Shown in pieces: positions 7,268 through 64,000 of a DNA stretch of 64,000 nucleotides. Below the pieces are notes generated by a model. It saw only the letters and a list, made by a program, of their open reading frames with translations, did no database searches and was not told the origin of the DNA. Source of the stretch: Desulfobulbaceae bacterium (GTDB lineage: Bacteria > Desulfobacterota > Desulfobulbia > Desulfobulbales > Desulfobulbaceae); the NCBI GenBank assembly GCA_023544645.1, contig JAMJFO010000001.1, positions 62,001 through 126,000 on the forward strand, given 5' to 3'. A program made the position numbers and the translations under genes. Every line of letters begins with the position of its first letter. Within the stretch, counting starts at the first letter, position 1.

Positions 7268-7392
7268 CAGTATTCTCCCTAAATATGGTAAGATAATAGT
7301 ATTCATTTTGTATTATTTAAAATGAATCATAACATATTGCAATTCATTATGCGAAAAGATACCATTTTAGAAACAGCCATGGGTCTGCCAAT

Positions 7393-7428
7393 AAAAAAGG
7401 CCCAGGAATCCTGATGGATCCGGACCTT
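7393..7428 (-). terminator. Rho-independent terminator of tRNA-Leu
   Basis: On the minus strand AAGGTCCGGATCC pairs across an ATCA loop with GGATTCCTGGGCCTT (one bulge), followed by TTTTTTATT. It starts 11 bases after the CCA end of the tRNA. Confidence 0.85.
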
Positions 7429-7438
7429 GTCAGGACTG

Positions 7439-7525
7439 TGGTGCCCGGGGCGAGAATCGAACTCGCACGAAGAGAACTTCGAGGGATTTTAAGTCCCTTG
7501 CGTCTACCAGTTCCGCCACCCGGGC
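7439..7525 (-). tRNA. tRNA-Leu (anticodon TAA)
   Basis: 87 nt including an encoded CCA. The acceptor stem GCCCGGG/CCCGGGC with A73 is intact. The anticodon arm AGGGA-CTTAAAA-TCCCT gives TAA. A long variable arm (CGAAGTTCTCTTCG) marks class II leucine tRNA, and the T arm is GCGAG-TTCGATT-CTCGC. Confidence 0.97.
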
Positions 7526-7536
7526 TGATGAGCGGC

Positions 7537-7565
7537 AATGTACCCGTCCGCCTCGATTTTGTCAA
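7537..7565 (-). promoter_or_regulatory. tRNA-Leu promoter
   Basis: Read on the minus strand: TTGACA (7560-7565), 17-bp spacer, TACATT (7537-7542), 11 bp before the tRNA 5' end. This is a near-consensus sigma-70 promoter. The rest of the 7566-7776 gap shows nothing further that can be supported apart from the leader of the K+ channel gene. Confidence 0.85.
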
Positions 7566-7776
7566 TTATGATGACCTGATAAATAATCGGTTAGTATGGC
7601 TGGACAGTCTTGTGGATGGACCACAGCCTCGGTTGATCCGCCGGCGGAGTATGTTTTTATGGAAACACTAATATCTGGGTGCCTTTCCCTCATGTTAATA
7701 GTGGCGCAGGATACTTCTGTTGTGCTATTTAATAATTGTTATGTGTCATTGCTTGCCAAAAATTTGAACTGAACAT

Positions 7777-9934: not shown

Positions 9935-9955
9935 GATCGATTTTTCCGCAGGTTA

Positions 9956-10963
9956 TCAGCGGGCGAGTTTTTTTCCGGGGCCGGGGGCGCCGGTTTTTTT
10001 TTCGTAGGCTTCGATGATTTCCTGCACCAGGGGGTGGCGAACAACATCTGATCTGGCAAAGGTGCAGAATTGTATTCCCAGGATGTTGCCGAGGGTCTGC
10101 TGGGCGTCAATGAGACCGGAGTGGGTTGATCCCGGCAGGTCTATCTGGGTAATATCCCCTGTCACCACGGCACGGGAGTCAAAGCCTATCCTGGTCAGGA
10201 ACATTTTCATCTGCTCCCGAGTGGTGTTCTGAGCTTCATCGAGAATGATAAAGGCATTGTTGAGAGTGCGTCCCCGCATGAAGGCCAGGGGGGCTATCTC
10301 GATGATGCCCCGTTCAATAAGTTCCAGGGTGCGGTCCTGTCCCAGCATATCATTGAGCGCGTCGGTGAGCGGCCGCAGATATGGATCGACTTTCTGGGCC
10401 ATGTCGCCGGGAAGGAAACCAAGTTTTTCCCCGGCCTCGACTGCCGGCCGGGTCAGGATTATTGAACGAACCTGTTCGCCGGCCAGAGCGGAAACAGCCA
10501 TGGCAACGGCAAGATAGGTTTTGCCGGTTCCTGCCGGACCGATGCCGAAAACAATATCATTCTTGCGGATGGCATCGATATAGGCTTTCTGATTGACACT
10601 CTTGGGCGAAATTACCCTGTTCCTTGAAGTAATATATACCTTGTCGAGGAAAATGTTTTCCAGTCTGGCCCGGGGTGATGATTCAAGGATCTTCAGGCCA
10701 AAGGCAATATCCTGGGTAAAGACCGGGTATCCATTGCCAATGAGCTGGTAGAGCTGTTCAAAGAGGGAGGCCGCAAGTTCAACGGCATGGTCCTGGCCGC
10801 TGATCTGCAATTGCTGGCCACGGGTATGGATGGTCACACCCGTGGCCAGTTCAACAGTCTGGAGATTCCGGTTAAGATCCCCGAACAGGGTCTGGGCGGT
10901 AGCGTTGTCCGGGAAATCGAGTTCGCGCAGGCCCGATGCGGTGCTGGAAGCAGATTGTTTCAA
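9956..10963 (-). CDS. phoH: PhoH-like ATPase
   Basis: 335 residues from the TTG at 10963, which has CAGGACGAG just upstream and begins 14 bp after the dsbA stop. A longer ATG-initiated frame (from 11110) would overlap dsbA by more than 130 bp and is unlikely. The Walker A motif is GPAGTGKTYLA and Walker B is FIILDEAQNTT. A KH-like N-terminal region (about 15-100) precedes the ATPase. PhoH with YbeY is a common pair in RNA metabolism. It sits in the operon dsbA(Sec)-phoH-ybeY/pdxJ. Confidence 0.93.
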   Translation of the reverse strand: MKQSASSTASGLRELDFPDNATAQTLFGDLNRNLQTVELATGVTIHTRGQQLQISGQDHAVELAASLFEQLYQLIGNGYPVFTQDIAFGLKILESSPRARLENIFLDKVYITSRNRVISPKSVNQKAYIDAIRKNDIVFGIGPAGTGKTYLAVAMAVSALAGEQVRSIILTRPAVEAGEKLGFLPGDMAQKVDPYLRPLTDALNDMLGQDRTLELIERGIIEIAPLAFMRGRTLNNAFIILDEAQNTTREQMKMFLTRIGFDSRAVVTGDITQIDLPGSTHSGLIDAQQTLGNILGIQFCTFARSDVVRHPLVQEIIEAYEKKTGAPGPGKKLAR

Positions 10964-10976
10964 CTCGTCCTGAGGA

Positions 10977-11840
10977 TTATTTTTTTGTCTTGGCCAGTTC
11001 CTGGTCAATGAGCGCCTGCAGCGCCTGGGGACTGCGGTCGTTGACCCGTATGCCGTTGACAAACATGGTCGGAGTGCCGCTGACTTCAGCTTCGCGGGCA
11101 TCCATGACATCCTTGATCAGACGCTGCTTGGTTGCCTCGCTGTTCATGTCAGCGTTGAAGGTGTCCATGTCCAGGCCGATTTCTTTAGCAGCATTGAGGA
11201 TGTTGGGCATGGTGATCGAACTCATGGCAAAGAGGGCGTCGTGCATTTGCCAGAACTTTCCCTGGTTGTGTGCTGCCAATGCGGCAAGGGCGGCTGGCTC
11301 AGCCATATTATGAATGTTGGTCAGCGGCAGGTTTTTGAAGGCTATTTTTACAGTCTGCGGATTTTTTTCGAGCACCTGCTCGAGCAGTGGCTGGATCGTG
11401 CCACAGTAGGGTCATTGGAAATCCGAAAACAGGGCCAGGACCACTGGGGCGTTTTCGTTGCCGAGAAAGGGAGCGCCGGTAATATCAATGGAGGCATTGA
11501 AGCTGACGGTGAGGCTGGAAAAGGTGTTATCCTGCTGGTTGATCAAGTAAAGCAGTTCTCCCCGGGGCGCGATATCGATGGCTGCAACGCCCTTGTCCAC
11601 GGAGATAGTTCCCTGTTTGTCACCGTTGGTGGAAAAAACGTGGACTTTGCTGTCATCACCAAGAATGAAAACCCGTTTGTTGTCCAGAGAGTGAACCATA
11701 TCAATGGGTTTGGCATCGATTTTCCAGGTCGCCTTGACCGAAGCGTCAATACCGATTGCCTGGGATGCCGGCGAAGGGATTGGCCCGGCCAGCAGCGGCA
11801 CCAAAAACAGCGCACTGATGGTAACAATTTTTTTGAGCAT
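10977..11840 (-). CDS. DsbA-like thioredoxin-fold selenoprotein (UGA = selenocysteine, UPYC active site)
   Basis: One 287-residue protein if the TGA at 11412-11414 is read as selenocysteine (residue 143). The reading frame continues without change: FSDFQ, then U, then PYCGTIQPLLEQVL, exactly where DsbA-family proteins have CPYC. Downstream are the DsbA helical insert and the cis-Pro loop SGTPTMFVNG. The ATG at 11840 has AAGGA eight bases upstream and opens a signal peptide (MLKKIVTISALFLVPLLAG), so the protein is periplasmic and should be an oxidoreductase. Residues 30-125 form an extra N-terminal beta-rich region of unknown role. A hairpin 22 nt after the UGA fits a bacterial SECIS. Sec-DsbA proteins are known in Deltaproteobacteria. 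Confidence 0.88.
11367..11411 (-). promoter_or_regulatory. Candidate bacterial SECIS element
   Basis: Immediately 3' of the UGA codon the mRNA can fold CACTGC-TCGA-GCAgGTG (11373-11389), with one bulged G and a possible AG/CT extension. Bacterial SECIS hairpins lie within the coding sequence at this distance and bind SelB. The apical-loop sequence has not been compared with a covariance model. Confidence 0.55.
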
Positions 11841-12040
11841 GATCAGATCCTTGTGTTGAAATGTAAAAACTTGGCTGGTTCGAGCAATGAATGACATGAA
11901 CCTCTTTTCGTCAGGACAGAACTATACTTCTTGTTTTCCTGATGCGCAAGTCGGGAAGAGAGGAAATAGTGTCGCTGGAGCTATTTTACAGCAGCAGGTT
12001 TAACCGGACAACTGTGTGCACGAGTGTATGCATAAGGAAG

Positions 12041-12994
12041 TCAGTTGATTTCTTCATCCTGCATGAGCGTATTGATCCTGCCAAGGACCCGGTCCAGTGA
12101 GCGCCATCCGGGGAAACGAAGAGAAAGGATTATTTCCTCGTTTTCAAATGCAGGGGTATGGTCGATGCGCATGGATGAAGGGAGTCCCAGGCGGGCAACC
12201 TTTTGTTGAAAGTCGTTTTCAGCCTGGGAGATTCTGGGGAAGCATTGTTCATGGAGCCACGACAGCAGCGCTGCCCCGTGTTGCGGAATATTGACAGATT
12301 GTCCAGCCTCATGCACAGCGGGGAAACGGGTAAGGATATCCTTCAGAGGGACATTTTTTCGCATGATCAATTCTCTGCTCAGGTCTATGAGCTTCTGCTG
12401 TTTTGATCCGCCAAAATGCAGATCTGTGATGAGCTGAATCAGCAATTCCTGATCCCCCGGGGAAAGGCCAAGCAGTTTCCGCGCGTTTCTCAGCTGGATG
12501 ACACCGTGGTGTAAGGCCTTCAGCGCCGGTATGCTCAAGGTGCGAAGCTGCAAAAGGTCATTGAGTATATGTTTCTGTGGTTTGTGGCCAAGTTTTCCCA
12601 GCAGCGGGATGGCGGCATCCATTGATGCTGCCGTGATCAGTTTCTCAAAAAAAATGATTTGTTCAACAATGCTGAGTTCTCTTCCGGTCAGCGCCTCTTC
12701 AAGAAGGAGAGAGAACACAGCCGTTTCTTCCAGATCCTCACGGAGTATCCTACAGAGAACAGGGTTCCCTGGATCAAGGATCCCGGCTGCGGCTAGCCGT
12801 TTCCTGCCGGCGATAATACAATAGGTGTTATTTTTTCGGCGGCGGAGGATGGGAGGGTTCAGTATGCCGAACTGTTTTATGCTTGCCAGTAATTCGTCAC
12901 CTGGAGCTTCTGCTGAAAGGGTGAGGCAATATGAGGTGTCCTCAATTTCAATGGCAGATATGGGAACGGATTGCAGCTGACTGAAGAAATTCAT
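12041..12994 (-). CDS. ParB/Spo0J N-terminal domain protein (orphan)
   Basis: 317 residues. The N-terminal 110 residues match the ParB/Srx fold: an opening PISAIEIEDT, then ASIKQFGILNPPILRRRKN and IIAGRKRLAAAGILD, the box II-like motif. A helical middle part (about 110-200) resembles the ParB helix-turn-helix region (GRELSIVEQIIFFEKLI). No parA is next to it; the neighbours are dsbA/phoH and ihfA. It may be a ParB-like regulator or CTPase of unknown DNA target, not the chromosomal ParB. Confidence 0.75.
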   Translation of the reverse strand: MNFFSQLQSVPISAIEIEDTSYCLTLSAEAPGDELLASIKQFGILNPPILRRRKNNTYCIIAGRKRLAAAGILDPGNPVLCRILREDLEETAVFSLLLEEALTGRELSIVEQIIFFEKLITAASMDAAIPLLGKLGHKPQKHILNDLLQLRTLSIPALKALHHGVIQLRNARKLLGLSPGDQELLIQLITDLHFGGSKQQKLIDLSRELIMRKNVPLKDILTRFPAVHEAGQSVNIPQHGAALLSWLHEQCFPRISQAENDFQQKVARLGLPSSMRIDHTPAFENEEIILSLRFPGWRSLDRVLGRINTLMQDEEIN

Positions 12995-13050
12995 GAGGAG
13001 GCTCAGGTGGTTGGGCTAATAGCTTTTGTATTTTGTACGTCTTTGCTGGT

Positions 13051-13082
13051 AAAAAAAAAGGGTGCCACCGGAGTGACACCCA
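13051..13082 (-). terminator. Rho-independent terminator after ihfA
   Basis: On the minus strand GGGTGTCA-CTCCGG-TGGCACCC is followed by nine T residues. It begins about 25 bp after the ihfA stop. Confidence 0.9.
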
Positions 13083-13105
13083 GCATAAATGGTGGTATGT
13101 AATGT

Positions 13106-13393
13106 TCAGCGCGAGTTGATTTTGTCGCGCAGGATGCCGGAAGGTTTAAATGTAATAACCCGCCGGGCATCAAGGGTCAATTCGTCGCCGGTCTGGGGGT
13201 TCCTTCCCCGGCGGGCTTTTTTGTCCTTTACATTGAATTTGCCGAAACCGCTCAGCAGGAGGTCCTCCCCGCTGATCAGCGCTTCCTTGGAAATAGCGAG
13301 GAAGGCTTCCACAGATGTTGTTGCCTGGGCCTTGGTCATGAGAGGGTGCGACTTGTATACCTGCTGTACAAGGTCGGCTTTTGTCAGGGTCAT
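13106..13393 (-). CDS. ihfA: HU/IHF family DNA-binding protein, IHF-alpha-like
   Basis: 95 residues, the standard length. The beta-arm segment GFGKFNVKDKKARRGRNPQT with the intercalating Pro (RNPQTGD) is typical of IHF-alpha. The partner subunit is not in the window. The ATG has GGAGG ten bases upstream. It is followed by a strong terminator and preceded by its own promoter, so it is monocistronic. Confidence 0.92.
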   Translation of the reverse strand: MTLTKADLVQQVYKSHPLMTKAQATTSVEAFLAISKEALISGEDLLLSGFGKFNVKDKKARRGRNPQTGDELTLDARRVITFKPSGILRDKINSR

Positions 13394-13465
13394 GATTGCT
13401 GAACCTCCGCGTAAAGGATAAGATATTGAAGTTCTTGTTTTTGTGAGTAGTATTACTCTATTTGT

Positions 13466-13493
13466 ATGATATGTTTTTTACGCAACTTGTCAA
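13466..13493 (-). promoter_or_regulatory. ihfA promoter
   Basis: Minus strand: TTGACA (13488-13493), 16-bp spacer, TATCAT (13466-13471), directly after the eno stop codon. A sigma-70-type promoter about 75 bp before the ihfA start codon. Confidence 0.65.
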
Positions 13494-13495
13494 TA

Positions 13496-14815
<1,320 letters not shown>

Positions 14816-14829
14816 TTAAAGTAAAGAGT

Positions 14830-16041
14830 TTATCCGCCAACCGCGCCGGCGATTTCGAAAATCGGCAGGTACATCGCTACAACCAGTCCGCCGATGATAC
14901 CGCCCAGGAAAACCATCATGAACGGCTCAATCATGGCGGTGAGATTATCCACAGCCTGATCCACCTCTTCATCGTAAAAGTCGGCGATTTTTTCCATCAT
15001 GGTGTCAAGGGCGCCGACTTGTTCGCCAACATTGATCATCTGGACGACCATGTTGGGAAAAACACCTGTTTCCTCGAGAGGTTCAGCAATTGCCCGACCC
15101 TCGGCAATGGCATCTCGAACTCTGAAAACAGCTATTTCGATAACTTTATTGCCGGCCGTCTTGCCAACCACCGTAAGGGCGTCAAGAATCGGGACTCCGC
15201 TCTGCAGCATGGTGCTCATGGTCCGGGTGAATTTTGCAACAGCAACCCGGCGGATAAGTGATCCGACGACCGGTAATTTAAGCATGATGGCATCTATTTT
15301 GATCTCACCCTTTTCTGTGGCATAGATTTTTTTGAATAAGAAGACGACAGCAGCGATACCCAGGAACAGCCAGATAAAATTGCTTTTAAAGCTATTGCTC
15401 ATGTTAACGACAATCTGGGTCGGCACCGGCAAGGCAGCGCCGAAATCGGCGAACATGCTTTCAAAAACAGGTATGACAAAAATAAGAATAACCACAAGGA
15501 TGACCAGAGAAATGCCCAGACAGATAGCCGGATAGGTCATGGCGCCTTTTATTTTTTTCTGCAGGGCCATGGCTTTTTCCATGAACGCAGCAAGGCGGGA
15601 GAGAATTGTATCGAGTATGCCGCCAAGCTCGCCGGCCTCAATCATGTTCGCATAGAGTGAATCAAAAGCCTTGGGATGTTTTCTCATTGCATCGGCAAGG
15701 GTGTTGCCGGTTTCAACATCGCTTTGAATTGTCAGCAGCATCTTTTTAAAAGTCGGATTTTCCTGTTGTTTGCTGAGAATTTGCAGGCACTGTACCAAAG
15801 GAAGGCCGGCGTCGATCATTGTGGACAGCTGTCGGGTGAAAATGACAATATCCTTTCCCGTGACCTTGGGTTGAAAAATTGTAACATTTTCAAAAAGGTC
15901 CTTGGGAGCTTCCTTGCACACCTTGACATCAATGCGCATCCGTTTGAGCTGGGCGCGGGCCCCGGCTTCATCAACAGACTCGATCTTACCCTTGCGCTTT
16001 TCACCGTAGGAATTGATTCCTTTCCAGATATATACAGGCAT
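14830..16041 (-). CDS. pilC: Type IV pilus / type II secretion inner-membrane platform protein PilC
   Basis: 403 residues with two GspF domains (about 65-190 and 270-390) and three membrane helices (about 170-192, 220-238 and 370-392). Conserved signatures are FTRQLSTMIDAGLPLVQCL and KFTRTMSTMLQSGVPILDAL in the two halves. It anchors the pilus assembly ATPases in the inner membrane. Other pil genes are not adjacent in this window, and the next gene downstream is eno. Confidence 0.95.
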   Translation of the reverse strand: MPVYIWKGINSYGEKRKGKIESVDEAGARAQLKRMRIDVKVCKEAPKDLFENVTIFQPKVTGKDIVIFTRQLSTMIDAGLPLVQCLQILSKQQENPTFKKMLLTIQSDVETGNTLADAMRKHPKAFDSLYANMIEAGELGGILDTILSRLAAFMEKAMALQKKIKGAMTYPAICLGISLVILVVILIFVIPVFESMFADFGAALPVPTQIVVNMSNSFKSNFIWLFLGIAAVVFLFKKIYATEKGEIKIDAIMLKLPVVGSLIRRVAVAKFTRTMSTMLQSGVPILDALTVVGKTAGNKVIEIAVFRVRDAIAEGRAIAEPLEETGVFPNMVVQMINVGEQVGALDTMMEKIADFYDEEVDQAVDNLTAMIEPFMMVFLGGIIGGLVVAMYLPIFEIAGAVGG

Positions 16042-54993: not shown

Positions 54994-55071
54994 GGTGGGA
55001 GTAGCTCAGCTGGTGGCAGCACCTGGTTGTGGCCCAGGAGGTCGTGGGTTCAAGTCCCATCTCTCACCCCA
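54994..55071 (+). tRNA. tRNA-His (anticodon GTG)
   Basis: Includes the extra G(-1) at 54994 opposite C73, the acceptor stem GTGGGAG/CTCTCAC, anticodon arm CCTGG-TTGTGGC-CCAGG and an encoded CCA (55069-55071). A mobile element follows directly, so the 3' part of this gene is the natural candidate attachment site. Confidence 0.97.
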
Positions 55072-55081
55072 GTAAAATATT

Positions 55082-55117
55082 AAGGGATTCAGGTGGTTAG
55101 CTTGAATCCCTTTTTTA
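55082..55117 (+). terminator. tRNA-His terminator
   Basis: GGGATTCA (55084-55091) pairs with TGAATCCC (55103-55110), followed by six T residues. Confidence 0.9.
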
Positions 55118-55166
55118 TTTTGTTTATTGGCCCCATATGCTGTCCCATGCGATTTCCCAAAAGCAT

Positions 55167-55200
55167 AAAAAAAGCCCCTGCCGAATGGCAAGGGCTTTTC
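55167..55200 (-). terminator. Terminator at the left end of the element
   Basis: AAAAGCCCCTGCC-GAAT-GGCAAGGGCTTTT, flanked by an A-run on the left, giving a U-tract on the minus strand. It follows the stop of the 87-residue gene by about 20 bp. Confidence 0.85.
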
Positions 55201-55220
55201 CGTCTGGCTCTCTTCAGGGT

Positions 55221-55484
55221 CTACCCGTTGACCGCCTTCTTTTCGACTTCGGAATAATACAGCCGCCGCATTTCGGCAAAGTCTTTCCGCAGGTCGGCAA
55301 GGACCATGCCCAGGCCGATCAATACCTCCTGTGAAACTTCCTCCTGGTTGAATGATTCGCTCATTCTGAGCACAGCGTCAGTGATAAAGTGCAAACGCGG
55401 CTGAATGTCGATCATTGCAAGCTCTAACTCAGCGTTGATAAATTTTGCCCCCTGGTTGCTTGCAAGCTCCATCTTCTTTCCCAT
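55221..55484 (-). CDS. Small helical protein of unknown function (element)
   Basis: 87 residues from the ATG at 55484, preceded by GGAGGT seven bases upstream. It is mainly alpha-helical (FINAELELAMIDIQPRLHFI, then VLADLRKDFAEMRRLYYSE) with no cysteines or recognisable motif. It is the last gene of the element before tRNA-His and has its own terminator. Not recognised. Confidence 0.7.
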   Translation of the reverse strand: MGKKMELASNQGAKFINAELELAMIDIQPRLHFITDAVLRMSESFNQEEVSQEVLIGLGMVLADLRKDFAEMRRLYYSEVEKKAVNG

Positions 55485-55590
55485 TTTCTGAACCTCCATA
55501 AAAAAATGCCTTGAGTGTTGTCAAGCTTATAACGGCTCCCAGGCCCTCACGGGTTCCCGGACACTCAAGGCAAAATAATATTCCCCAAAT

Positions 55591-55620
55591 AAAAAAGACC
55601 TGGTTTCAGGTGCCGGTCTT
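55591..55620 (-). terminator. Terminator of a minus-strand unit in the element
   Basis: AAGACC (55595-55600) pairs with GGTCTT (55615-55620), followed on the minus strand by TTTTTTATTT. A short minus-strand frame (…LLDYVEELDSEVIFNDYE…) stops at 55627, just before it, but has no start codon and an in-frame stop at 55741. Confidence 0.6.
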
Positions 55621-55631
55621 GCACCGTTATA

Positions 55632-56103
55632 ATTTGACATTTTCATAATCGTTGAAAATGACCTCGCTGTCAAGCTCTTCCACATAGTCAAGCAGGCAGA
55701 AGCCCAAACCGGGGCCGGGACGCGGACAGTGTGCCGGGAGCTAGCCAACCGGCACAACGAGGGGGCGGCGGCGGGGGATCGGGTCGATGGGGGCCAATTA
55801 AGGCAGCGAGTTGTCAGGCATGAGGGCGGCTATATCGGTACGAAACGTACCTATACCCCTTCCCCCTCCCCGGAACCTCCCGAAGAGGAAGAGAAGCCCC
55901 CGGCCAAACCGCCCGCCTATTCATGCGCGTTGCAGTTTTCCGGAATTGCTATCTCTCAGCTTTCCAGGATACCGGCAGACGATCCGAAGCGGCAAGAGGC
56001 TTTCCAGGAGGGGAGCGGCAGGCCGCGTCCTACAATTCCCGGTGCCACATGGCCCAGGCAAAACAAACCCCGCTGTTGTGACTCCCGGCTGCTAATCCTC
56101 TGA
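55632..56103 (+). pseudogene. Degenerate plus-strand reading frame in the element
   Basis: An open frame runs from 55632 to the TGA at 56101-56103 with no ATG; the first usual start is GTG 55729. Its middle reads like a real protein: ENDLAVKLFHIVKQAEAQ, CRELANRHNEGAAAGDRVDG, a Pro/Glu linker and AISQLSRIPADDPKRQEAFQ, after which it becomes Pro/Arg-rich as if frameshifted. The start and the C-terminus both look broken, and the 3' end runs into the terminase small subunit gene from the opposite side. It may be a decayed element gene. Its GC content is visibly higher than that of its surroundings. Confidence 0.4.
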
Positions 56104-56559
56104 CCTGGCTCCAATGTCCATGTTGGCAATTGCATTCCTGCACTTGGCAATTTCCTTCCGGATAAAGTCAACGTCCTTGCTTTCCAGGACCGGAACCCGT
56201 TTTTTAATGCTCAGGGGGATAGAATCAAGAATTGAAATAATTTGCTTGCCAACCTTTGCCAGTGTTTCAGTGACAAGGTCCGTTGGCACAAGGTGGCCTT
56301 CCTTCAAGTCGTTTTCAAGTTTCAATTTCCTGGTCTGTTCCTGTGCCAGCACAGCCCGTTCTTGTGACAGGTCAAGCTGATCCGCGTCAGAAGTCACGCC
56401 ATAGAGGATCGGTAATGCCTCGGAGCTTTCAAACAGGATCGCGCACCCCGGTTTCTTGGAGTCCTGTATTGGCCTTATTCCGGCCTCTGTCAAGCGTTTT
56501 TTGAGTGTTCGGTAGCTCATGCCGGTGAGGCTCGATAGATGGTTTAAACTGACATTCAT
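56092..56559 (-). CDS. Terminase small subunit, Nu1-like
   Basis: 155 residues. The N-terminal winged helix-turn-helix (VSLNHLSSLTGMSYRTLKKR) is followed by the helical segment RAVLAQEQTRKLKLENDLKE and GHLVPTDLVTETLAKVGKQI, the pattern of Nu1/DUF1441 DNA-packaging proteins. It should recognise packaging sites on DNA and recruit a large subunit, but none is encoded here. In phage satellites a lone small subunit redirects the helper's packaging motor. It is the most distal clear gene of the element. Confidence 0.8.
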   Translation of the reverse strand: MNVSLNHLSSLTGMSYRTLKKRLTEAGIRPIQDSKKPGCAILFESSEALPILYGVTSDADQLDLSQERAVLAQEQTRKLKLENDLKEGHLVPTDLVTETLAKVGKQIISILDSIPLSIKKRVPVLESKDVDFIRKEIAKCRNAIANMDIGARSED

Positions 56560-57070
56560 TTTAAATTCCTCTGATGATGCCCTTAGGCTTTTCCGAAAGT
56601 TGCGAAGGCGGGCGCGCGGCGAACTACCCCCGGCGCAACTCGCCAGAAGGACCCGTTAATATATAAGTAACGATATATTAGGAAGTTGACTGCAAAATTA
56701 ATCATAATGATTGTTGGATTGATAAACAAATACATTCTATACCTGTACTGTGGATATGACTACACCTTGAATCAAAAGAATCTCATGAGTTGATGCAGGA
56801 TGATATTTCATAATTGATATGCATTTATGACATTCGACAGGAAATGATTTGCAATCTTCCAGCATGTTATGCTCTTACTGCAGTCATTGGTATAGCCATT
56901 CGGCCATTCGCCCAGGGCGGTATATCCCATACCCCTAAAAGCAGAAAGCCCCCAGGGCGGCACATTCCCCAGGGGTTTTCCACTGTGCTCATGCGGGAAC
57001 CAAGGCCAAAAAGGAAAAAGCCTTTTGCGAGCGCATGAGGTCAAACCGTCTCGCACCTACGGCTTGTTTC
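56560..57070. other. Non-coding segment upstream of the terminase gene
   Basis: No convincing gene in about 510 bp. A perfect inverted repeat TAATATAT-AAGTAACG-ATATATTA lies at 56657-56680, about 100 bp before the terminase start, and may be an operator. AAGGC...GCCTTTT (57003-57026) and a GC-rich AACCCC/GGGGCTT pairing (about 56940-56982) look like terminators for the upstream gene. A 249-bp minus-strand frame here (56808-57056) has no Shine-Dalgarno site and an unnatural composition. Confidence 0.5.
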
Positions 57071-57577
57071 CTACTGAAGCATGACCCCTGCCGATTTGGC
57101 TGAATTTTTCAACTCTTCAAGCTCGGATTCAACCTTACCCAGGTCACGATTCAGCTTTTCAAGCTCGGCTTTCCTTTCAGCAAGGGGCGGTCCTGCTTCC
57201 GGCCACTCCATATCCTGAATGATCCGGGCAAGGGATTCCGTCAGCTGATTTTGAAACAAGCCGTAGATTGCCACAGGCAATATGCTATTGATACCCCCGG
57301 CTGAGTGCGGCGCAAGCAGTTGCGCATTTCCGGCCCGTGGCGTCATGCCGTTTTTGTGGAAAGACTCGTTTATCAGCCGGGAAAGACGGTCAATGTAATC
57401 CTGCTTTCCCATGTCAACGGTCCGATTCAGCATCTCAAGTGCGTCTTCCTTCGGAAGGGGCAAGCCGTTCAGTTCGTCGATCCGTTGCAACAGCTTCTCT
57501 CTCGCGGCCTCCCTTTCGCGGACCATTGCAGCAAGGTCGCCCAGGGCCGCTTTCAGCTTTAAAAATGGATTTGCCAT
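57071..57577 (-). CDS. Coiled-coil protein of unknown function (element)
   Basis: 168 residues from the ATG at 57577 with GGGGAGGGG upstream. An N-terminal helical region (AMVREREAAREKLLQRIDEL), a more hydrophobic middle (about 100-125, INSILPVAIYGLFQNQL) and a C-terminal coiled coil (LAERKAELEKLNRDLGKVES). The arrangement resembles structural or scaffold-like phage proteins, but no family is recognised. It starts one base after the previous gene. Confidence 0.72.
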   Translation of the reverse strand: MANPFLKLKAALGDLAAMVREREAAREKLLQRIDELNGLPLPKEDALEMLNRTVDMGKQDYIDRLSRLINESFHKNGMTPRAGNAQLLAPHSAGGINSILPVAIYGLFQNQLTESLARIIQDMEWPEAGPPLAERKAELEKLNRDLGKVESELEELKNSAKSAGVMLQ

Positions 57578-57578
57578 T

Positions 57579-57761
57579 TTAAACCCCTCCCCGTTTCTCA
57601 CCCTGAATCCGAATCAGGCCCTTTGACTGTGCGATTTTGAAGGCAATATAATCGTCAAAATTTCCATTGAATTCGGTCCGGATTGAGATGTCTTGTTCCC
57701 ATGCGCGTTTCGCGTCGGGTTCGATGATTGCTCTTTCATTGGCATACTGTTCTTTCTCCAT
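57579..57761 (-). CDS. 60-residue protein of unknown function (element)
   Basis: 60 residues. AAGGAGCAGAACACC precedes the ATG, a good Shine-Dalgarno site. The protein is acidic then basic (ERAIIEPDAKRAWEQDISIR, YIAFKIAQSKG) with no motif. It is probably translated with the coiled-coil gene that follows. Confidence 0.6.
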   Translation of the reverse strand: MEKEQYANERAIIEPDAKRAWEQDISIRTEFNGNFDDYIAFKIAQSKGLIRIQGEKRGGV

Positions 57762-57872
57762 GGTGTTCTGCTCCTTTTGAAATTGTTGAATAAAAAATTG
57801 TTCCTATGTTTCAATGATGACATAAGGTTGTCCCGGTGAATAGGCTTTTGCAGTCAATACACATATTGACCC

Positions 57873-58166
57873 CTATTCGTCTGAAACGTCATTCCGCAGT
57901 ATCTTTGCCAATTCATATTCACAAACCGGTAATGATTTCCCACTCGCCTTCCGTGCTTTGCAAAGAGCCTCATTGAATGCGGTCGGCCTACGCAGGTAGG
58001 CCCCGCCGGTACGTTCCCACGTATTTTCAAAGCGGCAAATAGCCCTCCCGAAGGCAATCACCCGCAGGTGGTAGGACCGGCCACGGACATAATTGAAAGC
58101 CTCCCGCAAGTGCCGGTTCCGCCTGGAAAGCTCTCCACGATTCAGTAATTGATCAAGAATCCTCAT
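57873..58166 (-). CDS. 97-residue basic protein of unknown function (element)
   Basis: 97 residues from the ATG at 58166, which overlaps the previous stop (ATGA) and has GGAGG/AGGAG upstream. It is rich in Arg and aromatic residues (LREAFNYVRGRSYHLRVIA, FGRAICRFENTWERTGG), so nucleic-acid binding is possible. Not recognised. Confidence 0.7.
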   Translation of the reverse strand: MRILDQLLNRGELSRRNRHLREAFNYVRGRSYHLRVIAFGRAICRFENTWERTGGAYLRRPTAFNEALCKARKASGKSLPVCEYELAKILRNDVSDE

Positions 58167-58627
58167 TGCTCCTGTTCCTCCACAATCTCCCGAAGCTGAC
58201 GGATTGATCCTGGCAACCGCCCGAACCGCCGCGCCTTGTAGAGGCAAAGCCAAAGCTGTGAATGAATCAGGCTTTCGGGTGGCTCTTTGCTGTCTTTAAG
58301 CCTCGGCCAGAAGTGATTTTCAAACTCGGTTATCTTCTGCCGGAACCTCTTCACCTTTTCGTGAGTGTTCCCGCCATCGACAAAGGAGAAGCCGATCCGC
58401 AGGAACCCATTTCTTTCATGCCGCCTGAAAAGGTTAATTTCCGCCTCTCTGCCCACTCCCGCGCTATTCAAGCCTAATGCCTTGCCCAGGTCCTCGCCGC
58501 CATAGAAAGCCCTGTCCAGGCCGTCAGATAGCCATTCATTGACCTCTTGCCCGCCATGCTCCCGGACGATCCGGGAAACGGTCAATAAAAGCTCAACAGG
58601 GCTCTTTATGTCGGCCTTACTGCCCAT
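58163..58627 (-). CDS. 154-residue protein of unknown function (element)
   Basis: 154 residues. ELLLTVSRIVREHGGQEVNE and RKITEFENHFWPRLKD-like segments are helical; a FLRIGFSFVDGG strand lies between. It starts 3 bp after the S49 peptidase gene ends and is translationally coupled to the next gene. Not recognised. Confidence 0.72.
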   Translation of the reverse strand: MGSKADIKSPVELLLTVSRIVREHGGQEVNEWLSDGLDRAFYGGEDLGKALGLNSAGVGREAEINLFRRHERNGFLRIGFSFVDGGNTHEKVKRFRQKITEFENHFWPRLKDSKEPPESLIHSQLWLCLYKARRFGRLPGSIRQLREIVEEQEQ

Positions 58628-58629
58628 TG

Positions 58630-59430
58630 TTACCCGCGAACCACTTCTTCAAAGGTGCTTACTTCGTCCGCCATGCCAAGCTTGACCGCTTTATCACCCA
58701 TGCGGATTCCACCCCTGCCGAACTCGTTCAGGACAGTTTCAACAGACACCTTCCGATTTTCCGCCACGTCTTCAATGAAGACTTGTGCCAAGGCGTCAAC
58801 CCTGCGCTGAAGTTCGTTGCGCCCGCTTTCTGTTCCGGGGTCCGCCTGCTTCAAGGGTGACTGAGAGCTGATAAGCTTGACAACGCCGTCTTCCCGGTCG
58901 GTCCTTACCCCCAGGATAGCCCCGATTGATCCAAGTTCAGCGGTCTTTGAAACAATGATCCGCCCGGCCGCTGAAGCCATCCAATAGGCCGCGCTTGCTG
59001 CCATGCCATCAACATAAGCAATGACCGGCTTCTTTGACTTCTTGATCATCTCCGCCATTTCTGAAATGCCTGTGGCCTGACCGCCCGGACTGTCAAACAC
59101 CATGACAAGCCTTTCCGCCCTTTTTTCATCTTGGACCGCCGCGAAGTCCCTTGACAGGTTTTCCAAGGTCTGCAGTCCGAAGTACCTTGTCATCAAATTT
59201 GCATACCGGAAAATAGGGCCAACCACGTTCAAGACGGCAACAGAGCCCCTCATTGTCACGTTCGGGCGGTACCACTCCCCGGATTTTGCCGCCAATGCCT
59301 GCAGGTCCCAATCTTTAACGCTCGATATTTCGTCAAGCATTGATGTTGCCGCCGCGTCCAGCATTGCCAAAGGTCGCCCGGCAATAAAGTAGCTTGCTAC
59401 AGCCTGTGAATAACCGTTTTCAATTTTCAT
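58630..59430 (-). CDS. S49-family (SppA/prohead protease-like) serine peptidase
   Basis: 266 residues from the ATG at 59430 (GGAG eight bases upstream; a longer frame to 59619 lacks support). Signatures: VMVFDSPGGQATGISEMAEM, the catalytic Ser in YVDGMAASAAYWMA, ELGSIGAILGV and the Lys in SQSPLKQADPG. There is no signal peptide or membrane helix, as in phage S49 proteases that cleave scaffold or capsid protein. No capsid or portal gene accompanies it, so the target may be a helper-phage protein. Confidence 0.85.
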   Translation of the reverse strand: MKIENGYSQAVASYFIAGRPLAMLDAAATSMLDEISSVKDWDLQALAAKSGEWYRPNVTMRGSVAVLNVVGPIFRYANLMTRYFGLQTLENLSRDFAAVQDEKRAERLVMVFDSPGGQATGISEMAEMIKKSKKPVIAYVDGMAASAAYWMASAAGRIIVSKTAELGSIGAILGVRTDREDGVVKLISSQSPLKQADPGTESGRNELQRRVDALAQVFIEDVAENRKVSVETVLNEFGRGGIRMGDKAVKLGMADEVSTFEEVVRG

Positions 59431-59447
59431 CTCCTGATCTCCATTTA

Positions 59448-59930
59448 TTAAAGTTGCGCCCTGCGCAGGGCATAAAATTTCTTCCTTCCTTCGGTCCTGC
59501 AAACAGTCAACCTGCCTTCGGCAACCAAGGCGGAAAGCTTCTCCTGTGCTCGCCGGGGGGCTATCCCTTCCAGGTCTGCAAGTTGCTTGACGGTAATTTC
59601 CGGGTGGTCCATGAACCAATCACCCAGGGCAGGAGGAAAAGGCTTTTCAGGTTCATCGACAAAATCATGCAGGTTAAAGCCCCGTTCCTCTGCTACCAGT
59701 TCGATGAATCTGGACAGGATCGCCCCGGTTATCCATTGCTTGCCGGAAAAATAATAAATCCACTGGACAAGATCGGCCTCGCTTTGCAGGGTGTCCATGT
59801 GGATATCACAGCCGAAGTCATCCAGGTTGAAGCGGATCGCGTTTGGCCTCTTGATTCGGCGAATTTGCCGGTCCTCGGGGAATCTGGTTCTCATAATTTC
59901 GGCCATGGTTTTGAATTCAACTCTGTCCAT
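59448..59930 (-). CDS. Winged-helix protein sharing its C-terminus with the primase-helicase
   Basis: 160 residues from the ATG at 59930 (GAGG upstream). The N-terminal two-thirds is not recognised. The C-terminal 50 residues (ITVKQLADLEGIAPRRAQEK, then LVAEGRLTVCRTEGRKKFYA) parallel the end of the primase-helicase (ITVKQAADVFDVNERTARR, LVDQGRLIICRSEGPLKYY). Its promoter region is the iteron array, so it may bind the repeats, initiate replication or repress its own gene. Confidence 0.75.
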   Translation of the reverse strand: MDRVEFKTMAEIMRTRFPEDRQIRRIKRPNAIRFNLDDFGCDIHMDTLQSEADLVQWIYYFSGKQWITGAILSRFIELVAEERGFNLHDFVDEPEKPFPPALGDWFMDHPEITVKQLADLEGIAPRRAQEKLSALVAEGRLTVCRTEGRKKFYALRRAQL

Positions 59931-59953
59931 ATTTCCTCGCGTGTATGAAAAAG

Positions 59954-60172
59954 TGTCAAAAGGTATACAAATATCTATATATATACTTGTTATTGTGTTG
60001 TTTTTTCTTTTTGACACTGTATGTCAAAAGCTTGTCAAAAGGTGTCAAAAGTAATGATTTCAATATTTTACCACCTTTTGACAGGGTTTTGACACCATTG
60101 TCAAAAGGTATGTCAAAAGCTATTTTTCTGTTATTACAGATAGTTATCATCATTTTCATGGACCTTTTGACA
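59954..60172. repeat. Iteron array, probable replication origin of the element
   Basis: About ten copies of TGTCAAAAG(G): forward at 59954, 60022, 60033, 60043, 60099 and 60111; reverse (CTTTTGACA forms) at about 60007-60016, 60074-60083, 60086-60094 and 60163-60172; a degenerate GGCAAAAGC near 60188. Several forward copies are spaced 10-11 bp apart, one helical turn. AT-rich DNA (about 59965-60006 and 60120-60160) flanks them. They lie between the primase-helicase stop and the winged-helix gene. Confidence 0.8.
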
Positions 60173-60197
60173 ATATTATGTGTGTAAGTGGCAAAAG

Positions 60198-62102
60198 CTA
60201 AAATATATTGGATGGGGAGTAGTATTTTAGGGGACCTTCCGACCGGCAAATTATCAACCTGCCCTGGTCAACAAGTTCACCAATCATCCGGCGGGCGGTT
60301 CTTTCGTTGACGTCGAAAACATCCGCCGCCTGCTTGACCGTGATTTCAACATTCGTCTTGAAAAATTCGCTTAGCATCATCGGTCCAATATCAATCTGCT
60401 GCTGTTCCGGGGGAAAAAGCTTCCACGTCATGTTTCGCCGGTTGAATTCAAGTGGATAATCTTCCTCGTTGACCTCCCGGCCCGTAACGTGCATGATGCC
60501 TTGGTTGCCGTCCCTGGTACACACAATAAGGGTGTCAGCTACGCCCTGGATACCTGTTGAACCGCTCATTTCGTCTATTGGGCTTGAATTCTTGGCCCCT
60601 GGACTTCCCTTCCTGGTATGGTGAACACAAACTACCGGGACCCCGTAGTGAATACTGAACCGTTGTAAACGCTCATAGTCTTCATATTCGGCTTGATACA
60701 GGTTACGCTTTCCGCCGTTCGACTTCGGACGCACTTTCTGAAGGGTATCGACCACGACAATCCCTGTGTTTTTATCGGATTGAACAATTCGTTCCAGCTC
60801 CCGGACAAAGCCGTTGCCGATCCGGGGGAAGTCGGTAAAGATGTGGAGGTTGTCCGGGTATGTATCAAAATAGCCTTCCATGCTTTGCATACGGTCTTTG
60901 GCCCTGCGATATGAATCCTCAAGAGCCAGATAATACGCACTTCCCTTTTTGGTCCTGGCATACTCCCAGGCCGGAAACCCCATTGCTACGGCATAGCAAA
61001 GCCCCAACATCATCCAGCTTTTCCCGAATTTCGGACGCCCGGCAATTATGGTCAGGCCCTCTGGAATAATCCCTTCAGCGGCCCATTTGATAGGAGGGTA
61101 GTCAGTTTCCATGATTTCCCGTGCCGTTAGAGACTTGACCCGGGGTTTCTCCTGAAGCAATGCCGCCTTTGTGGGACCGTCCCCAAGCTCTGACCGCATA
61201 TCGTTGAAGTCGGTTCCCTCGATACCTTCCGGATAAATCAGGTCGGCCCCGATTGCGTCTGCCGCTTCCTTCCCTGCTTCAAGACCGGTATTTTTTCCTA
61301 TCTCTTCGGCCTTCTTCCAGTCATTGTCAGCCGCAATAATGATAGGCTTCGGGTTTTTCCAGTCCGGGTAAATTTCCCGGACTGTTTTAGCTACAGAAAG
61401 AAGGTTTCCGGCATCAATGGCAACATAGGCTTTACAACCGGTCAATTCGTTAACAGTCGCCGCTGTAGCCCAACCTTCAGCAATGAAAATCTTGTCCTCT
61501 TTACCTTCTATGATGCTGAAACAGCCCTTTTTCTGGCCGTACTTGTACAGAAGCTTTGTGGGCTCGTTTTCACCCCTCTGGCTTTTATCAAATATCCGCT
61601 GTATAGAAACGTGGTTGCCGTTCCGGTCAACTATCTTGATAATCAAGGCCCCGGTTGACTTTTCAAAGCGGGCTTCATGGGATTGTACCCTCTTGGTTAT
61701 AAGTACCGGGTGATCATTGGGGACCGGTCCAGCCGCTTCCCATACTGTTGAAGAATCCTCTGCCGCTTTCTCCTGGCGTTTTGCCCGCTCCCTTTCATCT
61801 TCCTGGCGTTTTTTTTCGGCAATAAGAGAGTTAGCCAGTCTTTCCCCCGGGGATTGATTGCAGGCGCTATCCTGGCCGTCAGCGGGGTATCTGTATTTCT
61901 GGCCGTTCTTATGGTTTTCGAAAAAAGCCCAGGTTATTTCCTGCAAGCTGTTGCCTGTGATTTTGTAAGAACCGGATTTTTTGCCGCCCTTATCGCCGTC
62001 AACGGGGGCATGATGAAATCCCGCATTAATTTTTATTTGGCCAGCATCACCCCGGAAGCCTATTCCCTGTGCGCCTGCTAGTATTTCATTTAAAGTTGCC
62101 AT
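60198..62102 (-). CDS. TOPRIM primase fused to RepA/DnaB-like helicase with C-terminal winged helix
   Basis: 634 residues from the ATG at 62102 (AGGA upstream). N-terminal region to about 190, TOPRIM domain (IFIAEGWATAATVNELTG, IIIAADND), then a RecA-like ATPase of the AAA_25/RepA type (Walker A GRPKFGKSW, Walker B TGIVVVDTLQKV, VCVHHTRKGSPG), and a C-terminal winged helix (about 585-634). The combination primase-helicase-DNA binding is the plan of P4 alpha-type satellite replication proteins. The iterons lie directly after its stop. Confidence 0.9.
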   Translation of the reverse strand: MATLNEILAGAQGIGFRGDAGQIKINAGFHHAPVDGDKGGKKSGSYKITGNSLQEITWAFFENHKNGQKYRYPADGQDSACNQSPGERLANSLIAEKKRQEDERERAKRQEKAAEDSSTVWEAAGPVPNDHPVLITKRVQSHEARFEKSTGALIIKIVDRNGNHVSIQRIFDKSQRGENEPTKLLYKYGQKKGCFSIIEGKEDKIFIAEGWATAATVNELTGCKAYVAIDAGNLLSVAKTVREIYPDWKNPKPIIIAADNDWKKAEEIGKNTGLEAGKEAADAIGADLIYPEGIEGTDFNDMRSELGDGPTKAALLQEKPRVKSLTAREIMETDYPPIKWAAEGIIPEGLTIIAGRPKFGKSWMMLGLCYAVAMGFPAWEYARTKKGSAYYLALEDSYRRAKDRMQSMEGYFDTYPDNLHIFTDFPRIGNGFVRELERIVQSDKNTGIVVVDTLQKVRPKSNGGKRNLYQAEYEDYERLQRFSIHYGVPVVCVHHTRKGSPGAKNSSPIDEMSGSTGIQGVADTLIVCTRDGNQGIMHVTGREVNEEDYPLEFNRRNMTWKLFPPEQQQIDIGPMMLSEFFKTNVEITVKQAADVFDVNERTARRMIGELVDQGRLIICRSEGPLKYYSPSNIF

Positions 62103-62121
62103 ATGACTGTCCTGTCCAGGG

Positions 62122-62322
62122 TTATTTGTTGCAGCTTGCGGCCGGGGGGAACAACTGCCGCAGTTCGTCCAGCTCAAGGCTCCGGCAATCGTGCAAAACC
62201 TTGCCTTTGGAGTCCTTCACGAAATAAGCATCCTTTCCGGGCATCTTGACACGTACCACTTTCAGGCCCTGCCGCCTGGCAGCCGCCATGATAGAGAAAA
62301 TGATTTTGCTGTTATTGCTCAT
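62122..62322 (-). CDS. 66-residue protein of unknown function (element)
   Basis: 66 residues with GGGGG seven bases before the ATG. Basic N-terminal half (AAARRQGLKVVRVKMPGKDA) then an acidic end. It lies between the excisionase-like gene and the primase gene, 15 bp after the former. Not recognised. Confidence 0.6.
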   Translation of the reverse strand: MSNNSKIIFSIMAAARRQGLKVVRVKMPGKDAYFVKDSKGKVLHDCRSLELDELRQLFPPAASCNK

Positions 62323-62337
62323 GGTCGGCCCCCAGGG

Positions 62338-62574
62338 TTAAGAGGCTTTGACAAAAACGGTGTCCCGTTTCAGCCAATCAATAGTTGACTGTTTCGGGTA
62401 GCGGATTCCTACGCCTTTGATGCGGACGTAATCAGGCCCGGTCCCAACGCTGCGCTTGTTGGCAAGGGTTTTGACCGACCCGGCAAGGCCGAGTTTTACG
62501 AGGTCTTCGGGGGAATTTAACGGTTGGAGTTTTTCTTGAATTTCATCAAGAAATGAATTGTTGAGCTTTGACAT
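62338..62574 (-). CDS. AlpA/excisionase-like winged-helix protein
   Basis: 78 residues. The segment DLVKLGLAGSVKTLANKRSV followed by GVGIRYPKQSTIDWLKRD matches the MerR-like fold of AlpA/Xis proteins: a helix-turn-helix, a wing and a WL motif. It would promote excision or activate integrase. Its Shine-Dalgarno sequence AAGGAGG lies inside a long hairpin. Confidence 0.7.
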   Translation of the reverse strand: MSKLNNSFLDEIQEKLQPLNSPEDLVKLGLAGSVKTLANKRSVGTGPDYVRIKGVGIRYPKQSTIDWLKRDTVFVKAS

Positions 62575-62578
62575 GGTT

Positions 62579-62640
62579 CAACCTCCTTAGGGTTTATCTG
62601 TGTTCCTTGGTTATAAGGAAGATAAACCATAAGGAGGTTG
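62579..62640 (-). promoter_or_regulatory. Long hairpin burying the Shine-Dalgarno site of the excisionase-like gene
   Basis: Left arm 62579-62598 and right arm 62621-62640 are complementary at 19 of 20 positions, with an inner TTCCTT-GGTTAT-AAGGAA inverted repeat in the loop. On the minus strand the 3' arm contains CTAAGGAGGTTG, five bases before the ATG, so the Shine-Dalgarno site would be base-paired in the mRNA. This suggests control at translation, or a DNA cruciform/operator. Confidence 0.65.
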
Positions 62641-62871
62641 CAAGTCAAGCTAAGTACTTGAAATTAGGTAAATTTTCGGTAAATTTTCGGTAAATTTTTA
62701 TTGCTTAAATAAATGCTTTAACGTTAAAATTTATAGCATGAGTTTTTTCAGAATTTTTTTTAAATTATTTTTTTTCGCCAAAATTTTTTCAATCCCGTCC
62801 GCCAGCTTTTCCAGGGTTGATTTTGCCCCAGGTAAGGAAGAAATTTTCAAACCGGATTCTTGATTGTCTCT
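62641..62871. repeat. Integrase-excisionase control region with tandem repeats
   Basis: GGTAAATTTTC is repeated three times head to tail (62667-62699, last copy ending in T), one helical turn per repeat. Palindromes AAGTACTT (62652-62659) and TTTAACGTTAAA (62717-62728) flank it. The rest is AT-rich and holds no gene. Likely binding sites for excisionase, integrase or a repressor. Confidence 0.6.
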
Positions 62872-64000
62872 TCATCGGCCGACCTCCCGCGCTTCGGTGT
62901 TGTCGTGTTGCCGTTTTTGGTCAAATGCCTCAGCCATGGCCCGGACCGCATCTTGTTTCTGATCCGGCAAAAGGTGGCTGTATCGCTCCGTCATTGAAAT
63001 ACTCTTGTGTCGGGCAAGTTTTTGGATGGTGTAAAGCGGGGTTCCCTGCATGGCCAGCCATGAACAAAAAGTATGCCGCAGGGTATGAAAGACCACTCTA
63101 TACGTTGCATCTCTTGGCCCCAGGCCCTCATTAAATCCCAGGTCTTCCACGGTCCGGGGGAAGGTGTCGGAAATCTTGAACTGCAAGCCGCCTTTTGTGT
63201 CCGGGAAGACATAGTCTTCCGGCTTCGCGTCTTCCGGGATTCTTTCAAGAAGCATTTCCTTGACGGGATCGGTCATGTAAACCTGTTGCGATTCCTGCCC
63301 CTTGGTTGTCGGCAGGTGGACAACCTTGCTCTTGAAATCAAGGTCGCGCCATTTCAAGCCCCGGACCTCCCCGGACCTCAATCCACAATGAAGGGCAATA
63401 AGGACCTGGTCATGTGTCATTGGTGAACGTTTCGCCAGTTCATTAAGCAGCTGGCTTGCTTCGTCATGGGTCAAGAATCTGAGCCGCTTATTATTCACTT
63501 TTGGAAAATCAACTCTATTTGTCGGTACGGTCCCGCTGTAATATCCCCAGGAAATAGCTTTCCGGAATATTGTCCGGATAATGGTCAAGGTGTGGTGAAT
63601 GGTCTTTGGTGCAAGGCCCTTTTTGGCAAGGCTGCGCTTGAATCGTTCCAGTGATAAGGGGTCAATCTCCCGGAGTGGAGTATTGCCGAAAATAGGCTTA
63701 ATATGGTTGTTGTACCGGGAAGTATTTGCAAGCTGAGTGCTCTTGTTGAGTCCGGCAAGGTATTCTTGAGCAACGGTATCAAGGGAGATGTTCAGTTTTT
63801 CTTCCTTTTCCGCCGCCTGCTTCTCGGCTTTTTCCCGCTCAATGTCCATCAGGCGCATTTCTTTGAGGGATTGCGGCCTTTTTCCTGTCTGGATATTGCC
63901 AAGCAGTTCCGCCCGGATCTTTGCCGCCTTCTGCGCGTTCATTCCCCTGCTTGACCACCCGGCCCCCTCTTCAAAGTACCTTTTGAGGGTTGAATTGTAA
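62872..64000 (-). CDS. int: Tyrosine recombinase/integrase (partial, 5' end outside window)
   Basis: The frame is open from 64000 to the stop at 62872. An internal ATG at 63942 exists, but sequence before it (STLKRYFEEGAGWSSRGMNA, then AAKIRAELLGNIQTG) belongs to the Arm DNA-binding domain of this integrase class, so the true start lies beyond the edge. SAM-like core-binding domain about 63500-63800. Catalytic residues are Arg in HCGLRSGEVRGL, HTLRH and the Tyr in MTERYSHL. It would insert the element, possibly at tRNA-His. Confidence 0.93.
   Translation of the reverse strand, partial: YNSTLKRYFEEGAGWSSRGMNAQKAAKIRAELLGNIQTGKRPQSLKEMRLMDIEREKAEKQAAEKEEKLNISLDTVAQEYLAGLNKSTQLANTSRYNNHIKPIFGNTPLREIDPLSLERFKRSLAKKGLAPKTIHHTLTIIRTIFRKAISWGYYSGTVPTNRVDFPKVNNKRLRFLTHDEASQLLNELAKRSPMTHDQVLIALHCGLRSGEVRGLKWRDLDFKSKVVHLPTTKGQESQQVYMTDPVKEMLLERIPEDAKPEDYVFPDTKGGLQFKISDTFPRTVEDLGFNEGLGPRDATYRVVFHTLRHTFCSWLAMQGTPLYTIQKLARHKSISMTERYSHLLPDQKQDAVRAMAEAFDQKRQHDNTEAREVGR

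Follow-up and report, generated by a model that had tools for sequence, protein, structure and literature searches.

From position 55,072 to its end, a 64,000-nucleotide stretch of a Desulfobulbaceae bacterium chromosome (positions 62,001 to 126,000 of the 177,736-bp contig JAMJFO010000001.1; hereafter the window), part of a 3.85-Mb draft genome in 153 contigs, carries a minus-strand block of phage-related genes that raises the question of whether it is a phage satellite, as an earlier sequence-only reading had proposed, or a prophage that has decayed or is cut off by the window end. We find that the block belongs to a complete integrated insertion of ~9.2 kb in tRNA-His, that this element is very probably a phage satellite, and that it encodes a prohead protease reduced to its catalytic domain together with a stand-alone homologue of the protein's missing C-terminal scaffold tail.

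The element is bounded by a 75-bp direct repeat (one mismatch, BLAST 99%), whose left copy, attL, consists of the last 23 bases of tRNA-His and 52 bases beyond it, covering the 3' end of the tRNA and the terminator. The integrase gene adjoins the right copy, attR, and the intact tRNA-His, found beside the same left-hand gene in the six relatives examined, stands at the opposite end. Extension past 64000, where head, tail and terminase large subunit (TerL) genes in continuity with the block would make it an ordinary prophage, recovered attR at 64259-64333, followed by ordinary-looking chromosomal genes (judged from translations), and this right-hand boundary rules out an ordinary prophage running beyond the window. 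Along the minus strand, with gene starts revised by Shine-Dalgarno position, the order is integrase, two small proteins of 78 and 66 residues, primase-helicase, iterons, winged-helix protein, S49 protease, o154, o97, o60, o176, terminase small subunit (TerS) and o92; S49, o154 and o97 lie almost back to back, and o60 and o176 are separated by one base. When all frames of the complete element were searched with profiles that strongly detect known prophages, TerL, portal and coat had no credible match; no tail genes were found within the element or beyond, and no conjugation genes occur in it. Much of the earlier inventory thus stands: integrase, TOPRIM primase-helicase, S49 peptidase and Nu1-like TerS are all recovered on the minus strand by family profiles (PF00589, Toprim_3/AAA_25, PHROG 53 and PF07471/PHROG 57), and the reported lack of TerL, portal and capsid genes extends to every frame of the complete element. 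As a mobile unit the element is small and complete: it has two att sites and genes of its own for integration, replication and packaging specificity, and it lacks a virion gene set. This gives good support to a satellite rather than an ordinary prophage.

What kind of head such a satellite might exploit is suggested by its S49 gene, which does belong to the S49 family, as the sequence-only reading had it, but is more precisely a phage prohead protease reduced to its domain. The gene is of the lambda gpC type (PHROG 53, head maturation protease), and its nearest phage proteins in tblastn searches are annotated as S49 peptidase, capsid assembly protease C or head maturation protease; a cellular SppA identity was rejected, given a PHROG 53 match of 3e-60 against a weaker SppA match and a separate 633-aa SppA-type gene in the same genome. 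The protein covers positions 10-271 of the 414-position profile and hence ends where the protease domain ends, whereas the full-length protease/scaffold homologues have 412-487 aa in three prophage loci of the same bacterial order (L080, L081 and L083), where the gene order is the full lambda-type one of TerL, portal, protease/scaffold and coat. The C-terminal scaffold half of gpC is accordingly absent from the polypeptide, with the tail encoded separately. The catalytic part appears intact: alignment with SppA (3rst) supports an S49 fold with a Ser/Lys pair, S146 and the SSQSPxK motif are conserved, and the GMAASAAYW and SSQSPLK motifs are retained, including the conserved Ser and a Lys that is probably catalytic, the assignment of this Lys being putative.

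The missing tail has a counterpart in o60, a 60-residue protein encoded by its own gene. Against a profile of 23 phage tails built without it, o60 scored 49.7 bits (E 9.7e-15 among 705 window open reading frames, ORFs), and the next-best window ORF reached E 0.68. The likeness is restricted to the last 45-50 residues of gpC-type proteins, and in the phage proteins the matches fall at the very C-terminal end. The tail is present in 18 of 20 phage proteases of the clade around the element's and in 5 of 7 of the clade around that of a related element, L245; by contrast, none of the proteases of this element, L245 or a further relative, L092, keeps it within its own ORF. The sequence-only reading had counted five unrecognised genes between S49 and TerS. 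Four have good starts, and one of these, o60, is recognisable as the detached tail; o154, o97 and o176 indeed have no family in Pfam, PHROGs or NCBIfam, and Pfam and PHROGs hold none for o60 or o92. As to function, the C-terminal part of the P22 scaffold is a helix-loop-helix and that scaffold binds coat (PMC3185693), and in Staphylococcus aureus pathogenicity islands (SaPIs) CpmB competes with the 80alpha scaffold via a common motif, Rcm being proposed to work alike (PMC12409344). By analogy, o60 may bind the helper coat.

The Nu1-type TerS is the other member of a lambda-type head module in the element. Its relatives lie in prophage or phage loci (L113, 2e-19; L172, 2e-17) in which gpC proteases are encoded as well. 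Viral contigs scanned with S49 or TerS as single proteins gave no matches, nor did TerS tblastn searches of phage records.

Relatives were sought with S49 profiles in 84,980 species genomes and IMG/VR, followed by a TerL/portal profile screen, and two elements share more than S49 with this one. L092, on a 7.4-kb contig of a Zoogloeaceae metagenome-assembled genome, has the order primase, TerS-type helix-turn-helix (HTH) protein, o176 homologue, a 91-aa ORF and S49, and L245, from IMG/VR, runs from tRNA-Leu through integrase, helicase, TerS-type HTH protein, o154 homologue and S49 to an o176 homologue; TerL, portal and coat were not found in the examined stretches of either. In a tree built quickly with FastTree from a domain of ~200 residues, the L092 protease groups with L183 (support 0.93), that of L245 falls in a phage clade (0.995) and that of this element stands apart; the placement of L092 and L245 in different phage clades suggests repeated protease capture with o154/o176 retained. 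The protein o176 is common to these three satellite-like elements, and relatives of o154/o176 were seen only in L092 and L245, both without TerL or portal. Searches for o176 in phages, plasmids and viral contigs (tblastn or scan) gave no matches, and weak matches in three genomes of the phylum were dismissed, having no S49 in the short loci examined and looking like coiled-coil noise. An AlphaFold2 model of o176 shows four long helices (pLDDT 74), and structure searches with the o176 and o154 models gave no significant match; a part for these two proteins in prohead hijacking would be speculation.

The same truncation recurs in a different setting. Two 17-kb Vibrio plasmids, NZ_CP104556.1 and NZ_CP150861.1, encode a gpC relative of 275 aa that comprises the protease alone, its motifs intact, and neither has TerL, portal or a recognised coat. 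The protease of NZ_CP104556.1 is followed by two small proteins that match only the DNA-binding part of TerS (PHROG 141, 9e-11; PHROG 57, 1e-5) and then by a tape measure gene. No tail gene was found beside the Vibrio truncated protease, a 60-aa ORF there being a TerS HTH, and a 223-aa helical ORF has no detectable relation to o176. Vibrio satellite plasmids carrying gpE, protease and TerS have been published (PMC13230959), and the 11-kb plasmid NZ_CP083365.1, with a coat gene (PHROG 29), a full-length protease (434 aa) and a TerS fragment, looks by description, rather than by sequence comparison, like the PISP plasmid TG93 of that study. Three further candidates, the small contigs L305, L314 and L327, were rejected as lone-protease elements on ORF inspection, which showed terminase and portal genes. 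Vibrio anguillarum pVaJ360 (L365, NZ_CP034674.1; 56.6 kb) appears to hold about three head-to-tail copies of a 17.3-kb lone-protease satellite plasmid, with S49 at 8408, 25673 and 42926, as a natural multimer or an assembly artefact.

Together, these features are best read, from gene content, as those of a PICI-like satellite (PICI, phage-inducible chromosomal island) of a phage with a lambda-type head, that is, one with GpA TerL, gpB portal, gpC protease/scaffold and gpE coat, on which the element would depend. The anatomy suggests that integrase and att sites would carry it into and out of tRNA-His, and the architecture that the primase-helicase would replicate it autonomously from the iteron array. 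Following PICI and SaPI precedent, the Nu1-type TerS would swap into the helper terminase and cause satellite DNA to be packaged. The protease domain, freed of the scaffold half that normally brings it into the prohead, would act with o60 on helper prohead assembly: o60 would most likely compete for the scaffold site of the coat, like CpmB and Rcm, the free protease would remove or process helper scaffold, and the prohead would be redirected to the satellite at the expense of helper yield. We consider it likely that this is a complete, integrated and probably functional 9.2-kb satellite that parasitises such a phage, with protease and o60 acting on the helper prohead. Taken by itself, a role of the two proteins in prohead hijacking is a hypothesis that we favour with some reserve, and a redirection of head size in particular is possible but doubtful. 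Equally tentative is the broader proposal that unrelated satellites have independently detached the prohead protease from its scaffold, that the tail was here kept as a 60-aa protein, and that the pair dismantles and replaces the helper scaffold, a strategy not previously described.

Several observations weigh against the main reading of a satellite that parasitises a phage with a lambda-type head. No prophage with a matching TerL turned up: neither GpA-type TerL nor gpB-type portal is present in the host genome assembly by searches that succeed for both in E. coli and in two further control genomes, so that any helper is not a lambda-type prophage resident in this assembly. Within the family, 9 of 74 genomes have GpA TerL. 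The separate tail gene was seen in this element alone, and the coat-binding role of the tail is drawn by analogy from the P22, phi29 and 80alpha scaffolds rather than from lambda-type heads. Both L092 and L245 come from metagenomic contigs and have one or both ends undefined, no close relative of the element was found from which selection on its genes could be measured, and in the empty-site comparison relatives share the left flank and tRNA-His, but not the right flank.

The main rival, as in the sequence-only reading, is a lambda-type prophage deleted to its ends, of whose head operon the protease domain, the scaffold tail and TerS happen to survive. In its favour, S49, o60 and TerS derive from one phage head module, and o60 corresponds to the C-terminal end of a phage protein whose N-terminal part is the S49 domain. 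Yet the att sites, integrase and replication genes are intact, the ORFs are tightly packed with good ribosome-binding sites, TerS follows the protease instead of coming first as in lambda, the unrelated o154 and o97 stand between the two protein halves, and no remains of TerL, portal or coat persist in any frame. The relatives weaken it further, since the pairing of o154/o176 with proteases of other phage clades and the same lone truncation in unrelated Vibrio plasmids point to a recruited hijacking module rather than to prophage decay, which we consider improbable.

Somewhat less improbable, though still unlikely, is a satellite whose lone protease leaves heads unreshaped, supplying maturation activity in trans or serving as an anti-helper weapon, with TerS alone directing packaging, as in PICIs that do not switch capsid size. 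The intact catalytic motifs suit this alternative, as does the precedent of PICMI satellites, which are reported to encode no capsid-remodelling genes (PMC10803314); however, a helper with a lambda-type head already owns a protease, and this reading explains neither the separate scaffold tail gene nor why unrelated satellites have recruited the protease repeatedly. Lastly, the replication module resembles those of small tRNA islands of the phylum, some of which have no recognised packaging gene (L066: integrase and primase), so that a non-phage genomic island with phage-derived replication genes, moved by other means and carrying its head genes incidentally, might be envisaged; since the element has three separate genes from the head module of a single phage type and no conjugation genes, we regard it as very unlikely.

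Among known systems, the PICI-like satellite reading finds its closest parallels in Gram-negative PICIs (EcCICFT073, PmCI172; PMC6092414), which likewise combine integrase, an iteron-type origin with replication genes, TerS, no structural genes, ~10 kb and a specific att site. The element has such a site (the tRNA-His 3' end, with the 75-bp repeat), a replication initiator beside an iteron array by gene architecture, and a TerS homologue, as some, not all, PICIs do. It differs in its weak AlpA, its RecA-fold helicase, and a protease domain and scaffold tail in place of known interference genes, and many published PICIs carry capsid-E homologues (PMC13230959), unlike this element. With P4 it shares tRNA integration, a primase-helicase initiator near iterons and, by its proposed mechanism, use of a helper head; however, Pfam, PHROG and NCBIfam searches of the element recognised no Sid, Psu, delta, epsilon or alpha, the helicase family differs, and P4 has no TerS. 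The earlier label of a PICI/P4-like satellite thus holds for the satellite, and membership of either family does not follow, given the weak AlpA and the RecA/DnaB-type helicase. Capsid-forming PICIs (cfPICIs) similarly carry phage head genes, but theirs include coat, portal, TerL and connectors, none of which the element has. The PISP TG93 (PMC13230959) also has a phage gpC-type protease and TerS and no TerL, portal or complete tail; PISPs are, however, plasmids with a capsid-E gene and a full-length protease (as in NZ_CP083365.1), whereas the element is integrated, its protease is truncated, and Pfam, PHROG and profile searches found no coat or plasmid maintenance gene in it. SaPI CpmB and Rcm (PMC12409344) resemble o60 as small satellite proteins with a motif in common with the helper scaffold, while o60 is a direct homologue of the tail found on a protease-scaffold fusion, and the protease domain accompanies it.

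Satellites are known to hijack capsids through external scaffolds (Sid, TcaP), scaffold mimics (CpmB, Rcm) and coat homologues (Ccm, capsid E). Truncated lone proteases in satellites appear undescribed in the open-access literature searched, which likewise held nothing relevant on phage satellites in Desulf* taxa. If the proposal is correct, these mechanisms would be joined by a further one, in which several unrelated satellites have recruited a prohead protease detached from its scaffold, with the scaffold tail present as a free protein in this element. The element also places a bounded satellite in an order of Desulfobacterota.

Table 1. Features of the element and its integration site, in window coordinates (aa, residues; L005, extended locus)
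Feature	Position	Strand	Evidence
tRNA-His (GTG), integration target, intact	54995..55071	+	ARAGORN
attL, 75-bp direct repeat	55049..55123		k-mer match and sequence
o92, final gene before attL	55221..55499	-	ORF; no significant family match
Perfect 12-bp inverted repeat (TGCCTTGAGTGT/ACACTCAAGGCA) directly upstream of o92	55507..55572		
Nu1-type TerS, 155 aa	56092..56559	-	PF07471 5e-15, PHROG 57 6.5e-22, PHROG 141 1.8e-10
o176, alpha-helical, 168 aa from ATG 57577	57071..57577	-	phmmer 5e-10 to L092; profile 1.9e-7 to L245
o60, stand-alone homologue of gpC-type protease/scaffold C-terminal tail, 60 aa	57579..57761	-	tail profile; strong Shine-Dalgarno
o97	57873..58166	-	ORF; ATG overlaps o154 stop (ATGA); no family match for longer frame
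o154, predicted helical	58163..58627	-	phmmer 5.3e-6 to L245 homologue adjoining S49; alignment; model
S49 prohead protease domain only, 266 aa (ATG 59430), no scaffold half	58630..59430	-	PHROG 53 3.2e-60
Winged-helix protein, 160 aa	59448..59930	-	start by ribosome-binding site
Iteron array, 8 TGTCAAAAG and 10 TGTCAAAA, 30% GC; putative replication origin	59931..60197		
TOPRIM and RecA-fold (AAA_25) primase-helicase, C-terminal winged helix, 634 aa	60198..62102	-	Toprim_3 3.8e-9, AAA_25 2e-25
Small protein, 66 aa	62122..62322	-	ORF
Small excisionase-like protein, 78 aa, AlpA/Xis call weak	62338..62574	-	PHROG 2528 at 0.008; strong Shine-Dalgarno
Tyrosine integrase, 408 aa, complete	62872..64000 in window, gene to 64098 (L005 8872-10098)	-	PF00589 1.4e-30, PHROG 1
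attR	64259..64333, 259 bp beyond window end (L005:10259-10333)		k-mer match and sequence

The replication region (Table 1) is organised around the iteron array, which fills the 267-bp gap between the primase-helicase and winged-helix genes. The array that the sequence-only reading had noticed is real: TGTCAAAAG occurs eight times at 59954-60172 and nowhere else in the window, whereas dinucleotide shuffles of the window contain it 0.62 times on average and never more than 4 times. The helicase part of the replication protein is of the RecA/DnaB type, and its C-terminal winged helix is shared with the 160-aa protein on the other side of the array (43% identity over 56 aa, E 1e-11), so that both plausibly bind the array; the second protein probably sets copy number or transcription. 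An analogue for such a role is P4 Cnr. A viral contig (L037) encodes a helicase part 50% identical to the element's, plus a C-terminal extension, with its own different iteron-like array (CCCACTAAAGACCCACTA) directly downstream at 7180-7450, which suggests that initiator and array generally go together. The small ORF taken earlier for an AlpA/Xis-like protein is present, with a family assignment that is weak at best, as it has no Pfam match. Between it and the integrase gene, three tandem GGTAAATTTTC(G)-like repeats at 62660-62700 form a possible operator.

The searches also brought up other elements of note. In Methylohalomonas lacus (L093, NZ_JANUCT010000004.1, ~3500-15900), integrase, primase, a 360-aa protease, capsid E and tape measure genes occur without TerL or portal, resembling a chromosomal version of the Vibrio PISP plasmids. 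Within the same phylum, a 9.3-kb tRNA-Arg element (L077; G252 contig 148, 3562-12930) carries integrase, a small HTH protein, primase, a P27-type TerS (94 aa) and an HK97-type coat (497 aa) and no lambda-type TerL or portal, as another unusual satellite. A 13-kb tRNA-Arg element (L064; G333 contig 32, ~150-13385) has integrase, primase, HNH and weak TerS-like genes and a 1202-aa ORF resembling a tape measure, and no recognised head genes. Four further small elements with tRNA 3'-end repeats, L060, L061, L066 and L070 (11.6, 8.5, 6.6 and 13.5 kb), have related primases, and the first three also carry integrases.

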